Assembly (NCBI GenBank): GCA_009777365.1
Contig: WRLZ01000023.1
Span: 1-10,410 of the forward strand
Direction: 5' to 3'
DNA: 10,410 nucleotides
Source: Candidatus Saccharimonadota bacterium
GTDB lineage: Bacteria > Patescibacteriota > Saccharimonadia > Saccharimonadales > Saccharimonadaceae
The notes beneath the pieces are model-generated. The model did not search any database. It saw only the letters and a program-made list of their open reading frames with translations, and had not been told where the DNA came from. The first letter of the stretch is position 1; every line of letters begins with the position of its first letter. Positions 3,161 through 10,123 of this stretch are shown one piece after another. The translations under genes and the position numbers were made by a program.

Positions 3161-3220
3161 GTAGCGCCGCAGGCTCTTTAGTAGCAAGCGTGAATCCACT
3201 TCACGCGCAGCGAATGCAGC
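3161..3220 (+). repeat. Interspersed 60-nt hairpin repeat, copy 1 (tyrS leader)
   Basis: The first 25 nt (3161-3185) are identical to 5079-5103 and the last 12 nt (3209-3220) to 5125-5136. The 23-nt middle differs in sequence but again folds: GCGTGAA (3188-3194) pairs with TTCACGC (3200-3206) around TCCAC. Here it lies in the leader of tyrS. It does not show the conserved T-box sequence. Its role is unknown. Confidence 0.75.
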
Positions 3221-3242
3221 ATACAAACTAGGGGAGATAGAT

Positions 3243-4972: not shown

Positions 4973-4993
4973 CTCTCAAAACAACCAATCATT

Positions 4994-5030
4994 CGAATCC
5001 TCCTGACGCTCAGGCGCGTACGCTGATTCG
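4994..5030. repeat. Nested palindrome within remnant C
   Basis: CGAATC (4994-4999) pairs with GATTCG (5025-5030). Inside it CCTGA (5002-5006) pairs with TCAGG (5010-5014) around CGC. The inner palindrome lies exactly where remnant C departs from copy B. No T-run follows, so it is not an obvious terminator for the methyltransferase gene at 4457. Confidence 0.55.
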
Positions 5031-5078
5031 TTCCAGTCTGGCTCTTCATGGTTCCTTCCATAGCAACCAATCAGGGCG

Positions 5079-5136
5079 GTAGCGCCGCAGGCTCTTTAGT
5101 AGCGCAGCGCGGGTTCCCCGCGCTAGCGAATGCAGC
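5079..5136 (+). repeat. Interspersed 60-nt hairpin repeat, copy 2
   Basis: It shares 25 nt at the 5' end and 12 nt at the 3' end with 3161-3220. Its 21-nt middle forms a different but equivalent hairpin, AGCGCGGG (5106-5113) with CCCGCGCT (5117-5124) around TTC. It lies inside remnant C, between the part coding SSWF and the part coding YCFRG. One frame through it stays open and reads as a Gly/Ala-rich stretch, so a coding origin is an alternative. Confidence 0.75.
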
Positions 5137-5158
5137 CTTCAGACTATTGTTTTCGTGG

Positions 5159-5201
5159 ACCCCCACGGCTAAAGCCGTGGCCCCCTGCGGCGCATGCGTG
5201 G
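5159..5201. repeat. Small palindromic insertion flanked by CGTGG
   Basis: In copies A and B the sequence GTTTTCGTGGGGAGG is continuous. In remnant C it is split: GTTTTCGTGG (5149-5158), then 38 extra bases (5159-5196), then CGTGGGGAGG from 5197. The insert contains CCACGGC-TAAA-GCCGTGG. The five-base CGTGG present on both sides (5154-5158 and 5197-5201) looks like a target-site duplication. Confidence 0.5.
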
Positions 5202-5217
5202 GGAGGTAAGAGTATCA

Positions 5218-5226
5218 TGTTATAAT
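5218..5226 (+). promoter_or_regulatory. Extended -10 promoter of the DUF3800 gene
   Basis: TGt followed by a consensus TATAAT (5221-5226). No recognisable -35 box lies 16-18 nt upstream. Only 10 bases separate the -10 box from the ATG at 5237, so transcription would start about 3-5 nt before the start codon, predicting a near-leaderless message. A promoter this close behind the conserved CGTGGGGAGGTAA end means the cargo brought its own promoter. Confidence 0.65.
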
Positions 5227-5236
5227 ATAAAGAGCT

Positions 5237-5869
5237 ATGTCAAAAAAGCAGCTAATATTCATAGACGATTCCGGCGATCCAGGGTTTAAGTTCAATAGAA
5301 ACTCTGGCAAACATTTCGTGGTTTGCTGTATTATTTTCAATAATTCTCATAATGCTGAATTTGCTGGCGCAGGGATAAAGGTATTGAAAGACAAGTTGGG
5401 TTGGAAACAAGAACGAGAGTTTAAGTTTAACAGAGCATCTCCGGAACAAAAGAAAGCCTTTTTTGAGAATATTAAACTTTATGATTTCAAAGTTCGAGCT
5501 GTCATAATAGACAAAACGAAAATCAAGGAGCCGCTACTCAAAAAGAGCGATTCGTTCTATCGCTTTGCCATAAAAGAGGTGCTTGCCCGACATAACGACA
5601 TGAGAGAAGCTAAAATTTACTTAGACGGCAGTTCTGGTAAAAATTATCGCAAACAGTCCGCATCATATCTTCGTAAGGAGCTGAATAAGACCATTAGAAG
5701 AATGGCGGAATTTAGAACAGTCAGTTCAAGGAGCGACACTCTAATTCAACTAGCTGATATGATAGCCGGAGCTATACGCAGGAAGTATGACAAGACTAAG
5801 AGCGACAAAGTGAATTGCCTGCGTTATATTAGTGATAAAATCGAAGATATTTGGGAATATCCAGCTTAA
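5237..5869 (+). CDS. DUF3800 domain-containing protein
   Basis: The 210-residue protein has the DUF3800 hallmarks: an N-terminal IDDSGDPG (9-16) on the first strand, a middle EREFKF (59-64), IYLDGSSG (127-134) and a C-terminal DTLIQLADMIAGAIRR (167-182). The acidic residues D10/D11, E60, D130 and D174 are placed as in an RNase H-like metal site. The family's biochemical function is not established. Its members are common in mobile and defence-associated regions, so a nuclease or phage-related role is only inference. Base use is more AT-rich than in the housekeeping genes to the left, which suggests transfer. The message is probably leaderless. It has no operon partner: remnant C precedes it and a convergent minus-strand transcript follows. 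Confidence 0.85.
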   Translation: MSKKQLIFIDDSGDPGFKFNRNSGKHFVVCCIIFNNSHNAEFAGAGIKVLKDKLGWKQEREFKFNRASPEQKKAFFENIKLYDFKVRAVIIDKTKIKEPLLKKSDSFYRFAIKEVLARHNDMREAKIYLDGSSGKNYRKQSASYLRKELNKTIRRMAEFRTVSSRSDTLIQLADMIAGAIRRKYDKTKSDKVNCLRYISDKIEDIWEYPA

Positions 5870-5880
5870 CCTATATCACG

Positions 5881-5900
5881 AAAAAAGCCCGCCAGGGCTT
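5881..5900 (-). terminator. Bidirectional hairpin terminator, stronger on minus strand
   Basis: AAGCCC (5885-5890) pairs with GGGCTT (5895-5900) around GCCA. Read on the minus strand the stem is followed by a T-run (complement of the A-run 5881-5886). On the plus strand the tail is TTGTCTCTT, weaker, but it could end the DUF3800 message. Confidence 0.75.
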
Positions 5901-5983
5901 GTCTCTTGGTCGATTCGTTTTCTATCCGAGAGCTTGTTCGGAAAGCACACACAAGGTGTCAATTCGACAAACGAACCATTTGT
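5881..5983 (-). ncRNA. Candidate small RNA of about 100 nt
   Basis: A full promoter on the minus strand (5990-6018) points at a strong minus-strand terminator (5881-5900), and no plausible reading frame lies between. The predicted transcript could close through TTCGTTT pairing with AAACGAA and hold an inner hairpin TCCGA...TCGGA. It does not match any RNA family I can recognise. It converges on the DUF3800 gene, whose stop is 12 nt beyond the terminator. It could instead be a leftover promoter and terminator of a lost gene. Confidence 0.4.
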
Positions 5984-5989
5984 AACTAC

Positions 5990-6018
5990 ATTATATCACA
6001 CAAAAAGACTAAGTTCAA
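5990..6018 (-). promoter_or_regulatory. Minus-strand promoter between cargo 1 and remnant A
   Basis: On the minus strand, TTGAAC (6018-6013), 17-nt spacer, TATAAT (5995-5990), with TGa before the -10 box. The predicted start is near 5983. The nearest minus-strand gene, the histidine kinase, lies upstream of this promoter, so it does not serve that gene. Confidence 0.65.
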
Positions 6019-6096
6019 GGTTTTTGTCCTCAATATTCTGCTTATTGAAAAACAGCCGACCCTCCCTTACTCTATCTAATACAATACATCTTCTCT

Positions 6097-6117
6097 ATCC
6101 TCTGGGTGGTCGGGGGC
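6097..6117 (+). repeat. 21-nt identical block, partner at 9878-9898
   Basis: Positions 6097-6117 and 9878-9898 are identical over 21 nt. They encode SSGWSG with the same choice at every degenerate codon (TCC TCT GGG TGG TCG GGG). The following 120 nt of the two copies have diverged heavily. Confidence 0.9.
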
Positions 6118-6237
6118 ATGGATACAATCTATAACAAATAACTCTCCGTGGTTTGAGCGCGGTGCACAATCTGGCAATCTCGTTAATGCTGGCATTGAAT
6201 CTATAAATAGTACCGCGAGCGGAGGAGCTAGCGTCAC

Positions 6238-6254
6238 CGGTTTTCGTGGGGAGG
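6238..6254 (+). repeat. 17-nt conserved end block, partners at 10022-10038 and 5197-5209
   Basis: CGGTTTTCGTGGGGAGG is identical at 6238-6254 and 10022-10038. In remnant C it is present in two interrupted parts (5149-5158 and 5197-5209), and 5197-5209 equals 6245-6257. In all three copies unrelated sequence starts directly after it. It is a candidate recombination or attachment site. Confidence 0.85.
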
Positions 6255-6328
6255 TAAATGAATTAGTGAATGCTATTGGCACTTTGCCAACAATCCCCAA
6301 TATGTGGACACGAAAGGAGTATTTCTGT

Positions 6329-8440
6329 CTAAATCTCAAACCCGAAAAGGCTACCTTCGCCTTCGATACTCTCGAAAATCATCTTGCCGCCGCTTTCTTC
6401 AACGGTTTTCTTCACGACATACAGCCCTATGCCCGTACCATCGGGGCGGACAGCACCGGAGTTACTCGCGCGAAACATTTTGCCGAATAGCTTTGGCTGG
6501 TCGGCTTTCGGCACGCCAATACCATCGTCCTTAACTAAGAAAACAACATGCCCGTCTGTTTTGTGAAGAGAGACCTCAACCTTGGACTTGCCGTAATAAA
6601 TGGCATTGTCTATGATGTTCACTATCGCTTGCTTGATGCGTGCTATATCGCCGTTCATCCAAATATTCCGCTTATCGCGGTTGTAGGCAAGTTCCATGCC
6701 TTTTTGCTTGGTCTTTTCCGTAAGGAGATTGACAACTTCGTCAACAATAGCTGACAAATCAAAGTCGGTTTTGTTAAGAACAAAATTGCCGGAGTCAATG
6801 TTGGAAGCGTCCATAACGCTTGAAATCACTTGATTCATTGCTTGACCGGATTGGGCGGCCATCTCCAGCATTTTACGCTGTTCCTTGCTTATTTTGCCAA
6901 ATTCGCCGGACAGCATCATATCGACAATGCCAATCATGCCGGTTAGCGGGGTACGCAGGTTGTGTGATGAGATAGTCATTGCTTCGCTTCGGCGCATATC
7001 GGCTTCTTGTAGCTCCTTATTACTTTCCTGTAATTTCTTGGTTTTTCGGGCTACATCGGCCTTTAGTCTGTCGTTATAACCCATTAACTGTTTGTGAAAC
7101 GCTACTGATTGAACAGATGACGAAATAATGGCGGCAACCCTATCTAATGTCTCCCCATAGTGGCGCTCGAAACGGCGTTTTCGCGGGCTTAACACAATCA
7201 CGCCGTTAGCCTTGCCGTCTATTGCCCCGACAATCGGGGTTACAACTTCAATGTCATGGGCTTTTAGTGTGGTTAGGTCTATGTGGTTCTTAACTTCATT
7301 ACAATATATAGAGCGGGGTTTATTGCCGGTGGTTAAGCGCAGTAAGGTTTTTTCTAGCGCGCTGTCCTTTAGGTGAGCCGCCGTGTCGTGTCCGAAAACG
7401 ATTACATCCACTTGATCTACGCCGAAAAGCTCCTTCAAGGTATGACGAACGGCTTTGAGAAAATCTGCCGGATCGTGTTTGCTGGCGATAATCTGTGAAA
7501 TGCGACTTAAGACCTCGTTTTCGTTGTAGCCATCAAAGTCAAGATTTTTGATAATGACTTTACCGAAAGCGCGCAAAATATATATCCAAATGAGTGAAAT
7601 AAGCAGAACCGTTACGCCTACAACATAATGATTCCAGTTCACATCATAACCCGGACCGATTATCCGAGCCATTATTGTCAGGGCAAGCAAACAACCGGCG
7701 ATAATCAGTGTTCCGATAATACAGTAAATGAAACCCCTTGCAAAAGTTTTGAGGGCAGAAAAATGTTCATTGGTGGTGGCTAGTCGATAGGCTATAGGTA
7801 AAAACACGGCAGCGCCAATAGGGCCAACCCAAATTAAATTGTAATTACCGAGGAGCGGCAAAAGCAAATTGAATATCGCTCCAATTGTTCCACCTACCAC
7901 AGCCAAACAAACAGTAATTTTAAGATCAAGCTGTTGCTTTCTTTGCAGTTTTTTGGAAAGAGAGTTCTTGAGAAGCAGCGCGGCGCCAAAAGAAAAACTA
8001 ATTATAAAGACTAAACAATACGCAACATAATTCGCAAAATTAAACGCAACCCGCCGATCATATATAGAAACAATATCAATATTTGCAATAATAGTGTTTG
8101 GCTGAATAGTTAGAAGTATTGCAAATAAGACCAACATGAATAACAATGCTATTTTCAGAAATTTTAGGCGTTTTACTTGGCTGTATGAATCTGCAAAAAT
8201 TATAATAAATATCGGAATCGATATTGCAATAACATAAAAAATATTCGCGAGCACAAGTGAATTTTGCTGATTTGTATTGAGCAAAAAGAGAATAACAACC
8301 AAAATCCATAACGCTTCACAGACAGTTGTAAGCCCCAATGTTTTTGCGTGCTTATTATTTCTCGTAAATAGCCCGACAGCCGAAATAGTTAATAGGCCCA
8401 ACATAACTAACAAAAAATATGTAAACCATTGAATTTCCAT
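6329..8440 (-). CDS. Multi-pass membrane sensor histidine kinase with GAF domain
   Basis: The 703-residue protein is a membrane sensor kinase. Residues 1-295 hold about nine hydrophobic segments. The first seven (near 5-25, 35-54, 61-83, 93-112, 130-157, 171-197 and 202-221) resemble the 7TM sensor region found in some kinases; two more follow (near 233-258 and 272-293). A GAF-like region spans about 305-450, then a coiled coil (455-490). The HisKA domain has SSHNLRTPLTGMIG with phospho-acceptor His493. The ATPase domain has the N box IVNIIDNAIYYG (N612), G1 DDGIG (638-642) and G2 GTGIG (668-672). It lacks a receiver domain and no response regulator is in the window, so it is an orphan kinase. 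The ATG at 8440 lies 6 nt after the -10 box, which predicts a leaderless message. It is more AT-rich than the housekeeping genes. Confidence 0.93.
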   Translation of the reverse strand: MEIQWFTYFLLVMLGLLTISAVGLFTRNNKHAKTLGLTTVCEALWILVVILFLLNTNQQNSLVLANIFYVIAISIPIFIIIFADSYSQVKRLKFLKIALLFMLVLFAILLTIQPNTIIANIDIVSIYDRRVAFNFANYVAYCLVFIISFSFGAALLLKNSLSKKLQRKQQLDLKITVCLAVVGGTIGAIFNLLLPLLGNYNLIWVGPIGAAVFLPIAYRLATTNEHFSALKTFARGFIYCIIGTLIIAGCLLALTIMARIIGPGYDVNWNHYVVGVTVLLISLIWIYILRAFGKVIIKNLDFDGYNENEVLSRISQIIASKHDPADFLKAVRHTLKELFGVDQVDVIVFGHDTAAHLKDSALEKTLLRLTTGNKPRSIYCNEVKNHIDLTTLKAHDIEVVTPIVGAIDGKANGVIVLSPRKRRFERHYGETLDRVAAIISSSVQSVAFHKQLMGYNDRLKADVARKTKKLQESNKELQEADMRRSEAMTISSHNLRTPLTGMIGIVDMMLSGEFGKISKEQRKMLEMAAQSGQAMNQVISSVMDASNIDSGNFVLNKTDFDLSAIVDEVVNLLTEKTKQKGMELAYNRDKRNIWMNGDIARIKQAIVNIIDNAIYYGKSKVEVSLHKTDGHVVFLVKDDGIGVPKADQPKLFGKMFRASNSGAVRPDGTGIGLYVVKKTVEESGGKMIFESIEGEGSLFGFEI

Positions 8441-8446
8441 ATTTTT

Positions 8447-8474
8447 AGTATAACACGAAAAGAAAAAACGGCAA
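8447..8474 (-). promoter_or_regulatory. Histidine kinase promoter embedded in a terminator arm
   Basis: On the minus strand, TTGCCG (8474-8469), 16-nt spacer, TATACT (8452-8447), with TGt before the -10 box. The -35 box is part of the terminator stem that ends the upstream gene. The predicted start coincides with the A of the ATG at 8440. Confidence 0.6.
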
Positions 8475-8496
8475 CATCACAAGTTTGCCGTTTTTT
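8463..8496 (-). terminator. Terminator between methyltransferase and kinase genes
   Basis: Positions 8463-8474 pair perfectly with 8485-8496 (12 bp: AAAAAACGGCAA with TTGCCGTTTTTT) around a 10-nt loop. On the minus strand the stem ends in a T-run, 11 nt after the methyltransferase stop. The symmetric A and T runs could make it work in both directions. Confidence 0.85.
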
Positions 8497-8506
8497 AGAT
8501 TCCCCC

Positions 8507-9538
8507 CTATTTTTCAACCTTAAAGACTGTCCCGTAGTTTCCGCACTTGAACACGGTGACTTTTGTCTCTCCCAAGTCTGCTTTTTGCAAAAGGGAAAAA
8601 ACCTCGTCAACGCTCCGATAACGGAAACCAAGACCTGCGCCGTACGATATGCTTTTCAGATGCAACAACAACTCGAGCGTATTGCTCATAACTTCGTCAT
8701 CATTGTGCGTAACATCAAACAGCATATATCCGCCGGGCTTCAATCTTTTCCACTTTGACCGCTGGAATTCGATAAAACTTTCGTCAGACATATAATGTCC
8801 GTCGAAGCCTATTGTCGAAATACCGTCAGCAGGAAATTCCACGCAGGCGTTATCCGCAAAAACACCGGTTGCATAGGTTCTTGCCAAGTCTGTCAAACCA
8901 AGTTGCTCTAACTGTTTTTCGGCAATACTTATAGCCCGACCGCTTACATCAATTAGGGCAAGACTTGACGTGGGGTTTCGCGTATTGCATAAAGCCATAA
9001 TCAGACCCCATCCGACGCTTGAACCAATGGCGACAAAATGACCACCGCTCGACAGAGTTTCCTTCGCTTGTTCCATTTCTATGTCTGAGCGGGTGAGGTG
9101 ATAGATTGCCGTTGGAATGACCGAGTTCATTACAACCAAGTCTTCGCAAACAGGTTGCCCATTTATCGTCATTTCAAACGGCATCGACTCTCTGCCGGAC
9201 CCAAACATAATGCAGAACTCATCCCATACGTCAGAAAGCAAAACTTTCGCTTGAGGGATTTCCTTGAGAACTACACCAACGGCAACCATAGGATTTTCCG
9301 GCATCGCCATTTGTGCAGAAAACGCCTTGCGGAAAAGCGATTCCATCCGCTTGCCATCTTCGGAGTACCGCCTTTCCAGATATTCGCTTCTTTCGATTGT
9401 AACTATAGGTGTGGTATTTAGGCTTTGCCTTCCATAGTTCGGCTGCTGCCTTGCACAACAGCTGTCCGTCCTTTCTCGCGTAACTTGCGTTTTTGGCTGT
9501 TCCGCCGCTAACACATTTGATCCACTGGTTTTCAACAT
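8507..9538 (-). CDS. SAM-dependent methyltransferase-like protein
   Basis: The central part of this 343-residue protein has class I methyltransferase features: a glycine-rich loop FVAIGSSVGWG (168-178), an acidic strand end ALIDVSGRAISIAEKQLEQL (194-213, D197) that would hold the SAM ribose, then GFDGHYMSDESF (244-255) and KRLKPGGYMLFDVT (264-277), the usual strand after the active site. The first 160 residues are unlike common methyltransferases and may bind the substrate, which I cannot name. The Gly loop (IGSSVGWG) departs from the classic DxGxGxG, so the fold is more certain than activity. The ATG at 9538 is preferred, with AGAGGTG about 8 nt upstream; the in-frame GTG at 9547 is part of that site. 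It has its own promoter, a regulatory-looking leader and its own terminator. It is AT-rich like the kinase gene downstream. Confidence 0.75.
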   Translation of the reverse strand: MLKTSGSNVLAAEQPKTQVTRERTDSCCARQQPNYGRQSLNTTPIVTIERSEYLERRYSEDGKRMESLFRKAFSAQMAMPENPMVAVGVVLKEIPQAKVLLSDVWDEFCIMFGSGRESMPFEMTINGQPVCEDLVVMNSVIPTAIYHLTRSDIEMEQAKETLSSGGHFVAIGSSVGWGLIMALCNTRNPTSSLALIDVSGRAISIAEKQLEQLGLTDLARTYATGVFADNACVEFPADGISTIGFDGHYMSDESFIEFQRSKWKRLKPGGYMLFDVTHNDDEVMSNTLELLLHLKSISYGAGLGFRYRSVDEVFSLLQKADLGETKVTVFKCGNYGTVFKVEK

Positions 9539-9664
9539 AATTAGCACCTCTTTCTCATATTTGAGGCCGAGCCTACTTTGGCGTGAAAAATAGAGGGTTG
9601 TAAAGGTGCTAATACGCGACCCACAACCTTATTTTCATCAAAATAAGCTGTGAGCCTGTTTACA
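9539..9664 (-). promoter_or_regulatory. Leader that can mask the ribosome-binding site (candidate riboswitch or attenuator)
   Basis: On the plus-strand numbering, 9604-9613 (AGGTGCTAAT) is an exact 10-nt inverted partner of 9540-9549 (ATTAGCACCT), whose minus-strand copy is the ribosome-binding site region. Two further pairings compete upstream: 9628-9635 with 9640-9647 (8 bp, loop CATC, extended by 9622-9625 with 9649-9652), and 9596-9601 with 9623-9628 (GGTTGT/ACAACC), which would enclose the masking segment. The second and third exclude each other, giving an on/off architecture. The ligand or trigger is unknown. Confidence 0.6.
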
Positions 9665-9670
9665 TGATAT

Positions 9671-9699
9671 ATTTTAACACATTTTAATCGAATTTGCAA
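9671..9699 (-). promoter_or_regulatory. Promoter of the methyltransferase gene
   Basis: On the minus strand, TTGCAA (9699-9694), 17-nt spacer, TAAAAT (9676-9671), with TGt before the -10 box. The predicted start is near 9664, leaving a leader of about 125 nt. Confidence 0.75.
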
Positions 9700-9734
9700 G
9701 CATTATGTAGTGTTTTGGGCTGTTTTGTGTAATT

Positions 9735-10085
9735 TTGAGCTGTTATTACCCATCTCTGACCAACTCACAAAATGACATCACCCTCGGCAATTACGGTCTC
9801 GGTTCATCTGGGATTCTGTCTAATTCAAACTGGGGCATCTATGCTTCAAAACTCGGTCTCGGACAAGCCATCTTCGAATCCTCTGGGTGGTCGGGGGCGC
9901 ACGCCAATTCGTTCAATGGCACCACCGTTCGTTGGTTCGGCCGTGGCGGCGGCTCGGTCAATGCCGCTAGTGCTGGAGTCGAGTCCCTCAATGTCACTAG
10001 TGGCGGCACTAGTACGGCGTACGGTTTTCGTGGGGAGGAGCCCAAAACAAACACTCCTATCAGACTAGTGGCCGTGAAAGTCTGA
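9735..10085 (+). pseudogene. Copy B: truncated GFRG-type C-terminal domain
   Basis: This is the longest copy. From about 9755 it reads LTNSQNDITLGNYGLGSSG, SNSNWGIYASKLGLGQAIF, ESSGWSGAHANSF, RWFGRGGGS, AGVESLNVTSGG and YGFRGEE, ending in PIRLVAVKV at TGA 10083-10085. The RGG...AG...GFR pattern recalls lectin-like or FISUMP/formylglycine-enzyme-like C-termini of bacterial surface proteins, but I cannot assign the family. Only a TTG at 9735 could start it, with no ribosome site, and TAG at 9708-9710 closes the frame upstream. Base use shifts from AT-rich to GC-richer near 9745-9770, marking the cargo boundary. It is probably the original 3' end of the interrupted gene, since its stop lies within the terminator hairpin. 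Besides this copy, the intergenic stretch 9539-10123 holds the methyltransferase promoter and leader and this terminator, and nothing more that I can see. Confidence 0.6.
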
Positions 10086-10096
10086 TAGGAGTGTTT
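10049..10096. terminator. 18-bp perfect hairpin terminator, topA and copy B
   Basis: Positions 10049-10066 pair without mismatch with 10079-10096 around a 12-nt loop. On the minus strand, after topA, the stem ends in TTTGTTTTGGG, a good T tail. On the plus strand the tail is TTTCGTTTG. The hairpin includes the last codons of copy B (PIRLVAVKV). Confidence 0.85.
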
Positions 10097-10123
10097 CGTT
10101 TGAGCTAACTCTAGAGAGATCAA

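Follow-up and report, generated by a model that had tools for sequence, protein, structure and literature searches.

Diversity-generating retroelements (DGRs) are known for varying one or a few genes. In silent-cassette antigenic variation, such as pilS/pilE, vlsE or MgPar, one or two full-length loci are accompanied by many frame-intact partial copies; in the shufflon of R64 (pilV), interchangeable C-terminal segments share a conserved start block; REP/BIME and MITE repeats, for their part, are short, reach high copy numbers and often occur as inverted pairs. In the literature examined, DGRs carry one or a few variable repeats (VRs) inside target genes; PMC10907252 describes one exceptional genome whose 9 loci comprise 15 targets and 21 VRs. 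Dispersed VR cassettes without a gene are not reported in the open literature examined, which includes the available parts of PMC8144416, PMC10907252 and PMC3240598, subscription papers and preprints being outside its scope.

The DNA analysed here, called the window, is a stretch of 10,410 nt from contig WRLZ01000023.1 of assembly G000 (645 kb, 64% complete). The initial annotation had described in it three fragments of one C-terminal domain, called A, B and C, and these are real: all three lie on the + strand, share a common domain and are discrete units with defined ends; their location stood, with true limits slightly larger than first noted (A from about 6067, B from about 9750). Cassette A (6067..6254, +; profile match E 7.0e-17) has an intact frame (WSGA...GFRG) and no gene body; its 38-nt leader contains, by eye, an in-frame TAA, and its 5′ end block (6098..6117, +) and IMH-like 3′ end block (6238..6251, +) are, respectively, one of 88 places with at most 4 substitutions and one of 89 places with at most 2 in the G000 stretches examined. 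Cassette B (9750..10038, +; E 2.8e-17) has the same 3′ end and is of a longer type, in which the variable part is preceded by about 140 nt of target-gene sequence; the block search places its 5′ block at 9879..9898 (+) and its IMH-like 3′ block at 10022..10035 (+). Directly after it lies an inverted repeat (10039..10106, 28-nt arms, 89%), which may be a terminator or a DGR-type downstream hairpin. Cassette C (4973..5209, +) is a decayed copy, absent from the profile matches in G000 given below, in which 4992-5033 is 76% identical to 9873-9914 of cassette B. Its 5′ block is degenerate, its middle holds a dispersed repeat (5079-5146; copies begin at 3161 and 5079), and inspection by eye shows that its leader abuts the stop codon of SpoU and that a REP-like hairpin lies within its 3′ block, giving a split 3′ end that it shares with a second cassette (C13:8580).

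The fragments had been interpreted as a hotspot with differing cargo, formed by elements that insert at the 3′ end of a gene and supply it with a new end, or by a recombinase that swaps cassettes, with an integrase acting in trans or lost; this part of the proposal is not supported. No link could be shown between the window cassettes and the genes lying between them, and three cassettes make no marked hotspot because copies occur genome-wide, at about 1.4 per 10.4 kb. A scan of 10 window proteins showed no recombinase domain, in agreement with the earlier statement that the window has no integrase; rather than pointing to such an enzyme, the domain is a DGR variable repeat in a genome of the same genus, and base changes in G000 are adenine-biased. 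The empty-site comparison between SpoU and topA found a different gene after SpoU in the 3.5 kb of a same-genus genome examined. The cassettes resemble the R64 shufflon in their interchangeable C-terminal segments and conserved start block, and differ from it in being unclustered, in the lack of any recombinase seen in the window and in their DGR-type base changes.

Between C and A lies a DUF3800 gene (5237..5869, +) with an RNase HII-like predicted fold (structure prediction for 32 of the 120 rows listed, query included). The possible small RNA annotated beside it (5908..5977, −) does resemble the Rfam DUF3800-IX RNA, below its gathering score (E 0.00024, 28.7 bits, gathering 36.8), and the Rfam scan of the window returned nothing at that score; the RNA is conserved in G115, a genome of another genus, and a promoter and a terminator can be seen by eye. 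DUF3800 genes number three in G000 and two in G115, with none in 6 other genomes, and the window gene is 80% identical to one in G115, the others listed reaching at most 60%. Such a distribution is suggestive of DUF3800 as the mover of the cassettes, an idea we did not adopt because DUF3800 and its RNA are already known as a separate module.

Throughout G000, the domain of about 50 residues gives 87 profile matches (E ≤ 0.001) on 42 contigs and both strands, a spread that argues against a hotspot. Long frames contain only two of them, in the C1 gene (810 codons) and the C69 gene (751 codons); all the others are in frames of at most 315 codons, which speaks against replacement 3′ ends. The cassettes are thus dispersed units without a gene body and, C1 and C69 excepted, do not form the last part of a target coding sequence. 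Twelve of 77 fall within some open frame of at least 150 codons (a mechanical count on either strand), one being the C1 target itself. Insertion right after stop codons was rejected as a rule, because just 4/77 cassettes begin no more than 12 nt from the stop codon that ends a frame of at least 150 codons on the same strand. Viral cargo was rejected as well: 28 IMG/VR stretches hold the 16-nt block once each, and the domain occurs in none of their translations listed.

Both cassette ends are sharp and the 3′ block is near invariant, a conservation that is partly by construction because the blocks were found under a mismatch limit. The end block nevertheless recurs far beyond chance: its 17-nt form is present at 60 places in G000 (≤2 mismatches) vs. 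0 for the reversed control pattern. The AT-richer DNA noticed after the block proved general, mean G+C in 65 cassettes being 56% inside, 42% in the next 150 nt where that sequence was available, and 46% in the 150 nt before. A stem of at least 8 bp is found in the right flank of only 10/77 cassettes (shuffled 0.9) and in the left flank of 5 (shuffled 0.6); a 12-bp stem follows the C1 gene and a 17-bp stem follows cassette B. TATAAT-like boxes were also observed downstream of 15/77 cassettes (shuffled mean 7.4, maximum 14).

Aligning 79 of the 88 5′ blocks (template-like and hairpin-interrupted ones omitted) revealed a common 38-nt leader; since this alignment gives a sharp 5′ end, the idea of 5′-truncated retrocopies was set aside. 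The reading frame was tested on the 77 cassettes having both blocks, 23 blocks being without a partner. It is kept in 76/77, of which 74 are stop-free and 2 contain a stop, vs. stops in 43/77 and 71/77 cassettes for the two off frames.

Four copies in G000 are template-like: they are N-rich (12, 11, 9 and 8 AAC/AAT codons, the next cassette having 7), and each precedes a common tail, lacking in that next cassette, of about 200 nt that behaves as a covarying RNA, with two-sided changes in 22/59 pairs vs. 10.0 ± 2.3 in shuffles (0/500). None of the four equals any cassette or the C1 gene at all non-A bases, the best cassette being 6% off, and the 38-nt leader is absent from all four. Adenine tests were run on 77 cassettes obtained from frame-based patterns (4 template-like and 73 others), not on all 87 matches. 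When each of the 73 is compared with the best of the four, taken as the one with fewest non-A mismatches plus gaps, a choice that itself lowers the non-A rate, mismatches affect 0.56 of template adenines vs. 0.26 of non-A bases on average (range 0.06-0.43), so that change is not adenine-only, and the A rate exceeds the non-A rate in 72/73. The A mismatch does not rise with divergence (intercept 0.56 ± 0.04, slope −0.12, p 0.45; template with fewest non-A mismatches). In 15 close template-cassette pairs, AAY codons are changed at positions 1, 2 and 3 in 76, 89 and 28 of 158 cases, other codons in 99, 61 and 92 of 549; the A and non-A rates are 0.50 vs. 0.12 in these pairs, and the A excess is smaller in 17 close cassette-cassette pairs (0.30 vs. 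0.13). One has to keep in mind that the bias partly reflects the positions of variable codons, because the A/non-A ratios obtained without template choice (2.16, 2.02, 1.94 and 1.80 for the four templates) stand against a mean of 1.63 (maximum 1.94) for 73 other references.

Relatives show a more familiar arrangement. G001, of the same genus, has a complete DGR layout with a target gene, a reverse transcriptase (RT), a weak Avd match and a template, and its TR/VR pair differs at 18/42 template adenines and 0/151 other bases; in the pair of G016, 23/40 adenines and 1/149 other bases are changed. The G001 RT matches RVT_1 (1.6e-18) and the PHROG reverse transcriptase (1.4e-85), and RT genes are also present in G016 and G130, with a fragment in G115, whose separate family of 61 copies also speaks for the DGR reading given below. 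In the family-wide scan, at most 17 candidates were scored per genome. The designation “DGR type” rests on this layout and on the TR/VR pairs, because the RTs of the relatives fall below every curated NCBIfam cut-off and the Avd-like protein of G001, a weak PHROG match (E 0.0078), has none in Pfam or NCBIfam. In G000, which is 64% complete as assembled, neither PF00078 nor the G001 RT as query detected an RT, and the stretches examined gave no convincing Avd match. Structure prediction covered 22 of 55 target rows plus the C69 gene; the low-confidence model of the C1 protein (mean pLDDT 60.5) most closely resembles, among PDB entries, the DGR protein TaqVP, of which three chains head the matches (best E 1.3e-4), and C1 and C69 appear to carry the VR at the 3′ end of genes with a predicted C-type-lectin-like fold. 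The family thus shares with described DGRs (Bordetella phage BPP-1, TaqVP, the Patescibacteria clade) a C-terminal VR at the 3′ end of a long gene, a predicted DGR-protein-like fold, a template repeat with AAY codons, adenine-biased change and, in a same-genus relative, an RT with a weak Avd match; it departs from them in that about 80 VR-like units of G000 have a leader and no gene body.

We consider it probable (roughly 0.6) that the cassettes are gene-less DGR variable repeats, which have become detached from their gene and take their sequence from templates. Error-prone reverse transcription of a template RNA, with mistakes at adenines, would yield cDNA that is written into recipient sites set by the 3′ block GGTTTTCGTGGGG, in the role of an IMH, and the 5′ homology block TCCTCTGGGTGGTCGGGGGC. 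The normal recipient would be the 3′ end of one secreted C-type-lectin-like gene, and the recipient unit (38-nt leader, VR and 3′ block) would have been copied to about 80 further sites without the gene body. The frame could then remain intact without translation because the sites are, or lately were, rewritten from frame-correct templates, and the leader would decay, being outside the known templates. On this reading, the cassettes are presumably not translated, would be rewritten in place, and may first have been inserted by way of DGR cDNA.

An unlikely alternative, which would make of the cassettes a silent reservoir, has them recombine as donors, by homology, into the one or two genes that are expressed, whose selection would in turn preserve the cassette frame. 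As in silent-cassette antigenic variation, G000 has two full-length genes vs. about 80 frame-intact partial copies, whose nucleotide-conserved ends could serve as crossover arms, and the C2:9669 copy matches the C1 gene at 99.3% identity across the 152 nt preceding the variable part and diverges beyond that point, as after a swap. The cassettes are, however, dispersed rather than clustered and show little mosaicism (an interior stretch of 40 nt is ≥95% alike in only 5/2926 cassette pairs), none of the cassettes compared is a donor for the C1 end as it now stands, and an adenine pattern without an age trend requires a mutagenic copying step.

Less probable still is that the cassettes are non-autonomous mobile elements of a REP/BIME or MITE kind, which took up the variable domain and rely on a recombinase acting in trans. 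The sharp ends would fit, and so would the cassette pairs of G000, five of them head-to-head with a 51-52 nt spacer and others tail-to-tail at C39, C48 and C81. The 61 copies of the separate G115 family would fit as well: many form inverted pairs, a central palindrome is present in the two examined in full, and 56 copies have near-invariant ends. The constant end there folds at −15.5 kcal/mol and has 0 matches in IMG/VR, and no template was identified in that genome; in its frame test (51/55 ends examined), stop counts in control frames were left aside, one off frame having a stop within the constant end block. Against such an element, a Y1 transposase was found in 0/6 genomes searched (G000 being 64% complete), vs. 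6/14 control genomes in the same search, and target-site duplications show no excess over shuffled sequence (16 vs. 12.9 at k = 4, 5 vs. 3.9 at k = 5, 2 vs. 0.9 at k = 6, 0 vs. 0.3 at k = 7). Although short, high-copy and often in inverted pairs like REP/BIME and MITE repeats, the cassettes carry an intact hypervariable protein-coding frame, and a mobile element alone would leave both frame retention and adenine bias unexplained. Transposition of this kind may instead be the spreading step within the DGR reading.

Ordinary selection on cassettes translated as small genes would account for their intact frames and is very improbable: only 28/77 have a usable start (in-frame ATG, GTG or TTG, with no stop between, within 150 nt upstream; ATG in 16), and the leader, which is random for stops, has an in-frame stop within 36 nt upstream in 31/77. 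That they are what is left of ordinary tandem paralogues encoding a secreted protein, the outcome named in the initial annotation as fatal to its own account, is hardly credible, since only the last 60 codons or so recur, their ends are constant and they are spread over 42 contigs and both strands, even though the domain is also present in several long frames in G013.

A broader version of the DGR reading, which we regard as somewhat unlikely, is that of a genome-wide DGR whose adenine-mutagenised, frame-correct variants, kept in about 100 gene-less sites, would form a heritable archive refilling the expressed gene, and which would have originated two or more times within a single bacterial family; if true, it would couple retro-mutagenesis to silent-cassette memory. 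About 80 gene-less VRs with ends and frame kept would mean, for their part, that DGR recipients can become dispersed elements themselves. They would offer natural material for asking what a minimal recipient needs, whether the writing of cDNA requires a gene and whether copies that are not translated can serve as memory, and they bear on how tiny Saccharibacteria-type cells may alter their surface proteins.

The three copies of one gene end that the initial annotation had read as an accessory hotspot are present in the window, cassettes A and B with an intact frame and cassette C (4973-5209) decayed and interrupted, but their density is about average for a genome-wide family and there is no local concentration. 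A search of the window's own genome (G000; a 645 kb assembly in 88 contigs, 64% complete) found the 17-nt end block at 60 places with at most 2 mismatches (reversed control, 0), and a profile, A1, built from 65 cassettes gave 87 matches at E ≤ 0.001, spread over 42 contigs. Between the fragments lie a DUF3800 gene, a histidine kinase and a weak methyltransferase match; no link of this cargo to the cassettes, as had been proposed, could be demonstrated except for the co-occurrence of DUF3800 in expanded genomes, the gene being present in both of them (G000 and G115, a relative from a different genus) and absent from 6/6 others searched. The DUF3800 gene and a convergent small RNA (5237-5977), the latter resembling Rfam DUF3800-IX below gathering (E 0.00024), are conserved in G115, with 80% protein identity (other proteins listed, 60% at most); the predicted DUF3800 fold is nearest to RNase HII (E 1.4e-5). 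Elsewhere in the window, a 30-nt tandem repeat in three copies follows the first small gene (671-760), a dispersed repeat whose first 25 nt are identical lies upstream of TyrRS (3161-3230) and inside cassette C (5079-5146), and a long A+T-rich leader seen by eye 5' of the methyltransferase-like gene (9550-9720) may have a regulatory role.

Per-base identity in 77 two-block cassettes is 90-100% over a 20-nt 5' block and over a 14-nt 3' block (the exception, at 77%, being the first base of the latter), figures aided by construction as the blocks were located under mismatch limits; in the interior, the synonymous positions of conserved residues vary. The cassettes are preceded by a 38-nt leader that has a consensus of its own, and similarity ends abruptly before this leader (79/88 aligned). 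Window cassette B and C2:9669 (on contig C2) form a longer type, their shared start lying farther upstream within the target gene; C2:9669 is 99.3% identical to the contig C1 gene across 152 nt. Five cassette pairs are head-to-head with a 51-52 nt spacer. By eye, a REP-like hairpin sits at the identical 5'-block position in four cassettes (C1:14317, C2:8684, C8:9214 and C29:3931), a pattern suggesting that cassettes were copied after they had been interrupted. The palindrome ATGTTATATAACAT recurs just 3' of cassettes, in right flanks at C9, C27, C39 and C81, and falls in the tail-to-tail spacers at C39 and C81.

Long frames hold only two of the 87 matches, at C1 (810 codons) and C69 (751 codons). 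We term these target proteins secreted because of a hydrophobic N-terminal segment recognised by eye; they match FGE-sulfatase under the Pfam cut-off, and the top PDB matches of the predicted C1 structure (mean pLDDT 60.5) are three TaqVP chains (best E 1.3e-4), TaqVP being the variable protein of a diversity-generating retroelement (DGR) from Thermus. A recA-like gene, also recognised by eye, is convergent with the C1 target gene (L044, 5729-6901, minus strand). In G001, the sole same-genus genome among 60 relatives searched, the homologous gene is followed by a reverse transcriptase (RT) gene, an Avd-like gene and a second repeat copy, a complete DGR layout; with the second copy as template, the gene end departs from it at 18/42 adenines and at 0/151 of the remaining bases. 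Another relative, G016, likewise has an RT, together with a comparable template repeat/variable repeat (TR/VR) pair (23/40 adenines, 1/149 others). Given this RT layout and these adenine-biased differences, the cassette domain is the variable repeat of a DGR, an assignment resting on layout and TR/VR pairs; none of the relatives' RTs reached the cut-off of curated NCBIfam models.

Four G000 cassettes are template-like, each with 8-12 AAC/AAT codons and a common tail of about 200 nt on the 3' side; the tail recurs, full or partial, at C15, C24 and C69. Five tails (C26:3751-3945, C12, C48, C81 and C15, the last without a repeat) share a 59-pair structure in which 22 pairs show two-sided changes, versus 10.0 ± 2.3 in shuffles (0/500 as high) and 3-5 in slid controls, which makes the tail look like a selected RNA; an Rfam scan of these five loci gave no family at gathering score. 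Against the best template-like copy, the 73 other cassettes have a mean mismatch of 0.56 at template adenines and 0.26 at other bases, the latter lowered by choosing the copy with fewest non-adenine mismatches plus gaps. Mismatch at adenines shows no dependence on mismatch at the other bases (slope -0.12, p 0.45, intercept 0.56 ± 0.04), and even the least diverged cassette, C1:14184, has 19/36 adenines and 6/108 other bases changed. In 15 close pairs, positions 1-2 of AAY codons are changed in about half and position 3 at background. One has to keep in mind that some adenine excess arises with any reference cassette, because its adenines sit in variable codons: over 73 references the adenine/non-adenine ratio averages 1.63 (maximum 1.94), versus 2.16, 2.02, 1.94 and 1.80 for the four template-like copies. 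Close cassette-cassette pairs give 0.30 at adenines versus 0.13 at others.

Family-wide, with no more than 17 candidates scored per genome, we found matches at 1e-5 in 13/394 genomes. Same-genus G001 (75% complete) has 2, and the G000 expansion is therefore recent or local. G115 carries 61 copies of another end block (59 exact; control 0), many at inverted-pair spacing; its frame is kept in 51/51 measurable cassettes, with a stop in 1, and the third base of hypervariable codons is a pyrimidine in 73%. Its loci, including L093 and L077, contain units of about 555 bp with two divergent hypervariable cassettes and near-invariant inverted ends; a central palindrome is present in both of the inverted pairs that were read from end to end. 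An RT fragment lies at a contig edge in G115, and no template was identified there. Four dispersed copies with flanks in common occur in G130, a congener of G115; with the G130 copy C6 as reference, mismatch is 0.26-0.50 at adenines and 0.12-0.13 at other bases, the adenine excess being smaller or absent with the remaining three.

A BPP-1 recipient requires an initiation-of-mutagenic-homing (IMH) element, a downstream hairpin and 5' homology (PMC3240598). The G000 blocks could act as IMH and 5' homology, but only 10/77 right flanks have a stem of at least 8 (0.9 in shuffles), and for left flanks the count is 5 (0.6 in shuffles). The cassette units also carry a leader missing from known templates, and no RT was found in the 64%-complete G000 assembly. 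In the richest case found, that of Thiohalocapsa PB-PSB1, 15 target proteins carry 21 VRs between them (PMC10907252), and nothing comparable to the G000 cassettes appeared in the literature searched.

Cassette lengths range from 142 to 178 nt, yet the frame is kept in 76/77; 74 of these 76 are stop-free, and the other two frames have stops in 43/77 and 71/77. In only 28/77 do the preceding nucleotides (150 at most) offer an in-frame start codon (ATG in 16) that no stop separates from the cassette, and 31/77 have an in-frame stop among the 36 nt just before it, close to a calculated random expectation of about 34. Selection through use of the cassettes as donors would also fit the kept frames; evidence for exchange among cassettes is thin (5/2926 pairs). 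Rewriting from templates would account for both the intact interior and the decayed leader without any need for translation: templates start near -9, covering the interior and leaving the leader outside, so that frame-correct templates would rewrite the one and the other would decay beside it. We infer that DGR cDNA would be the source of the cassettes, and that their rewriting is probably continuing.
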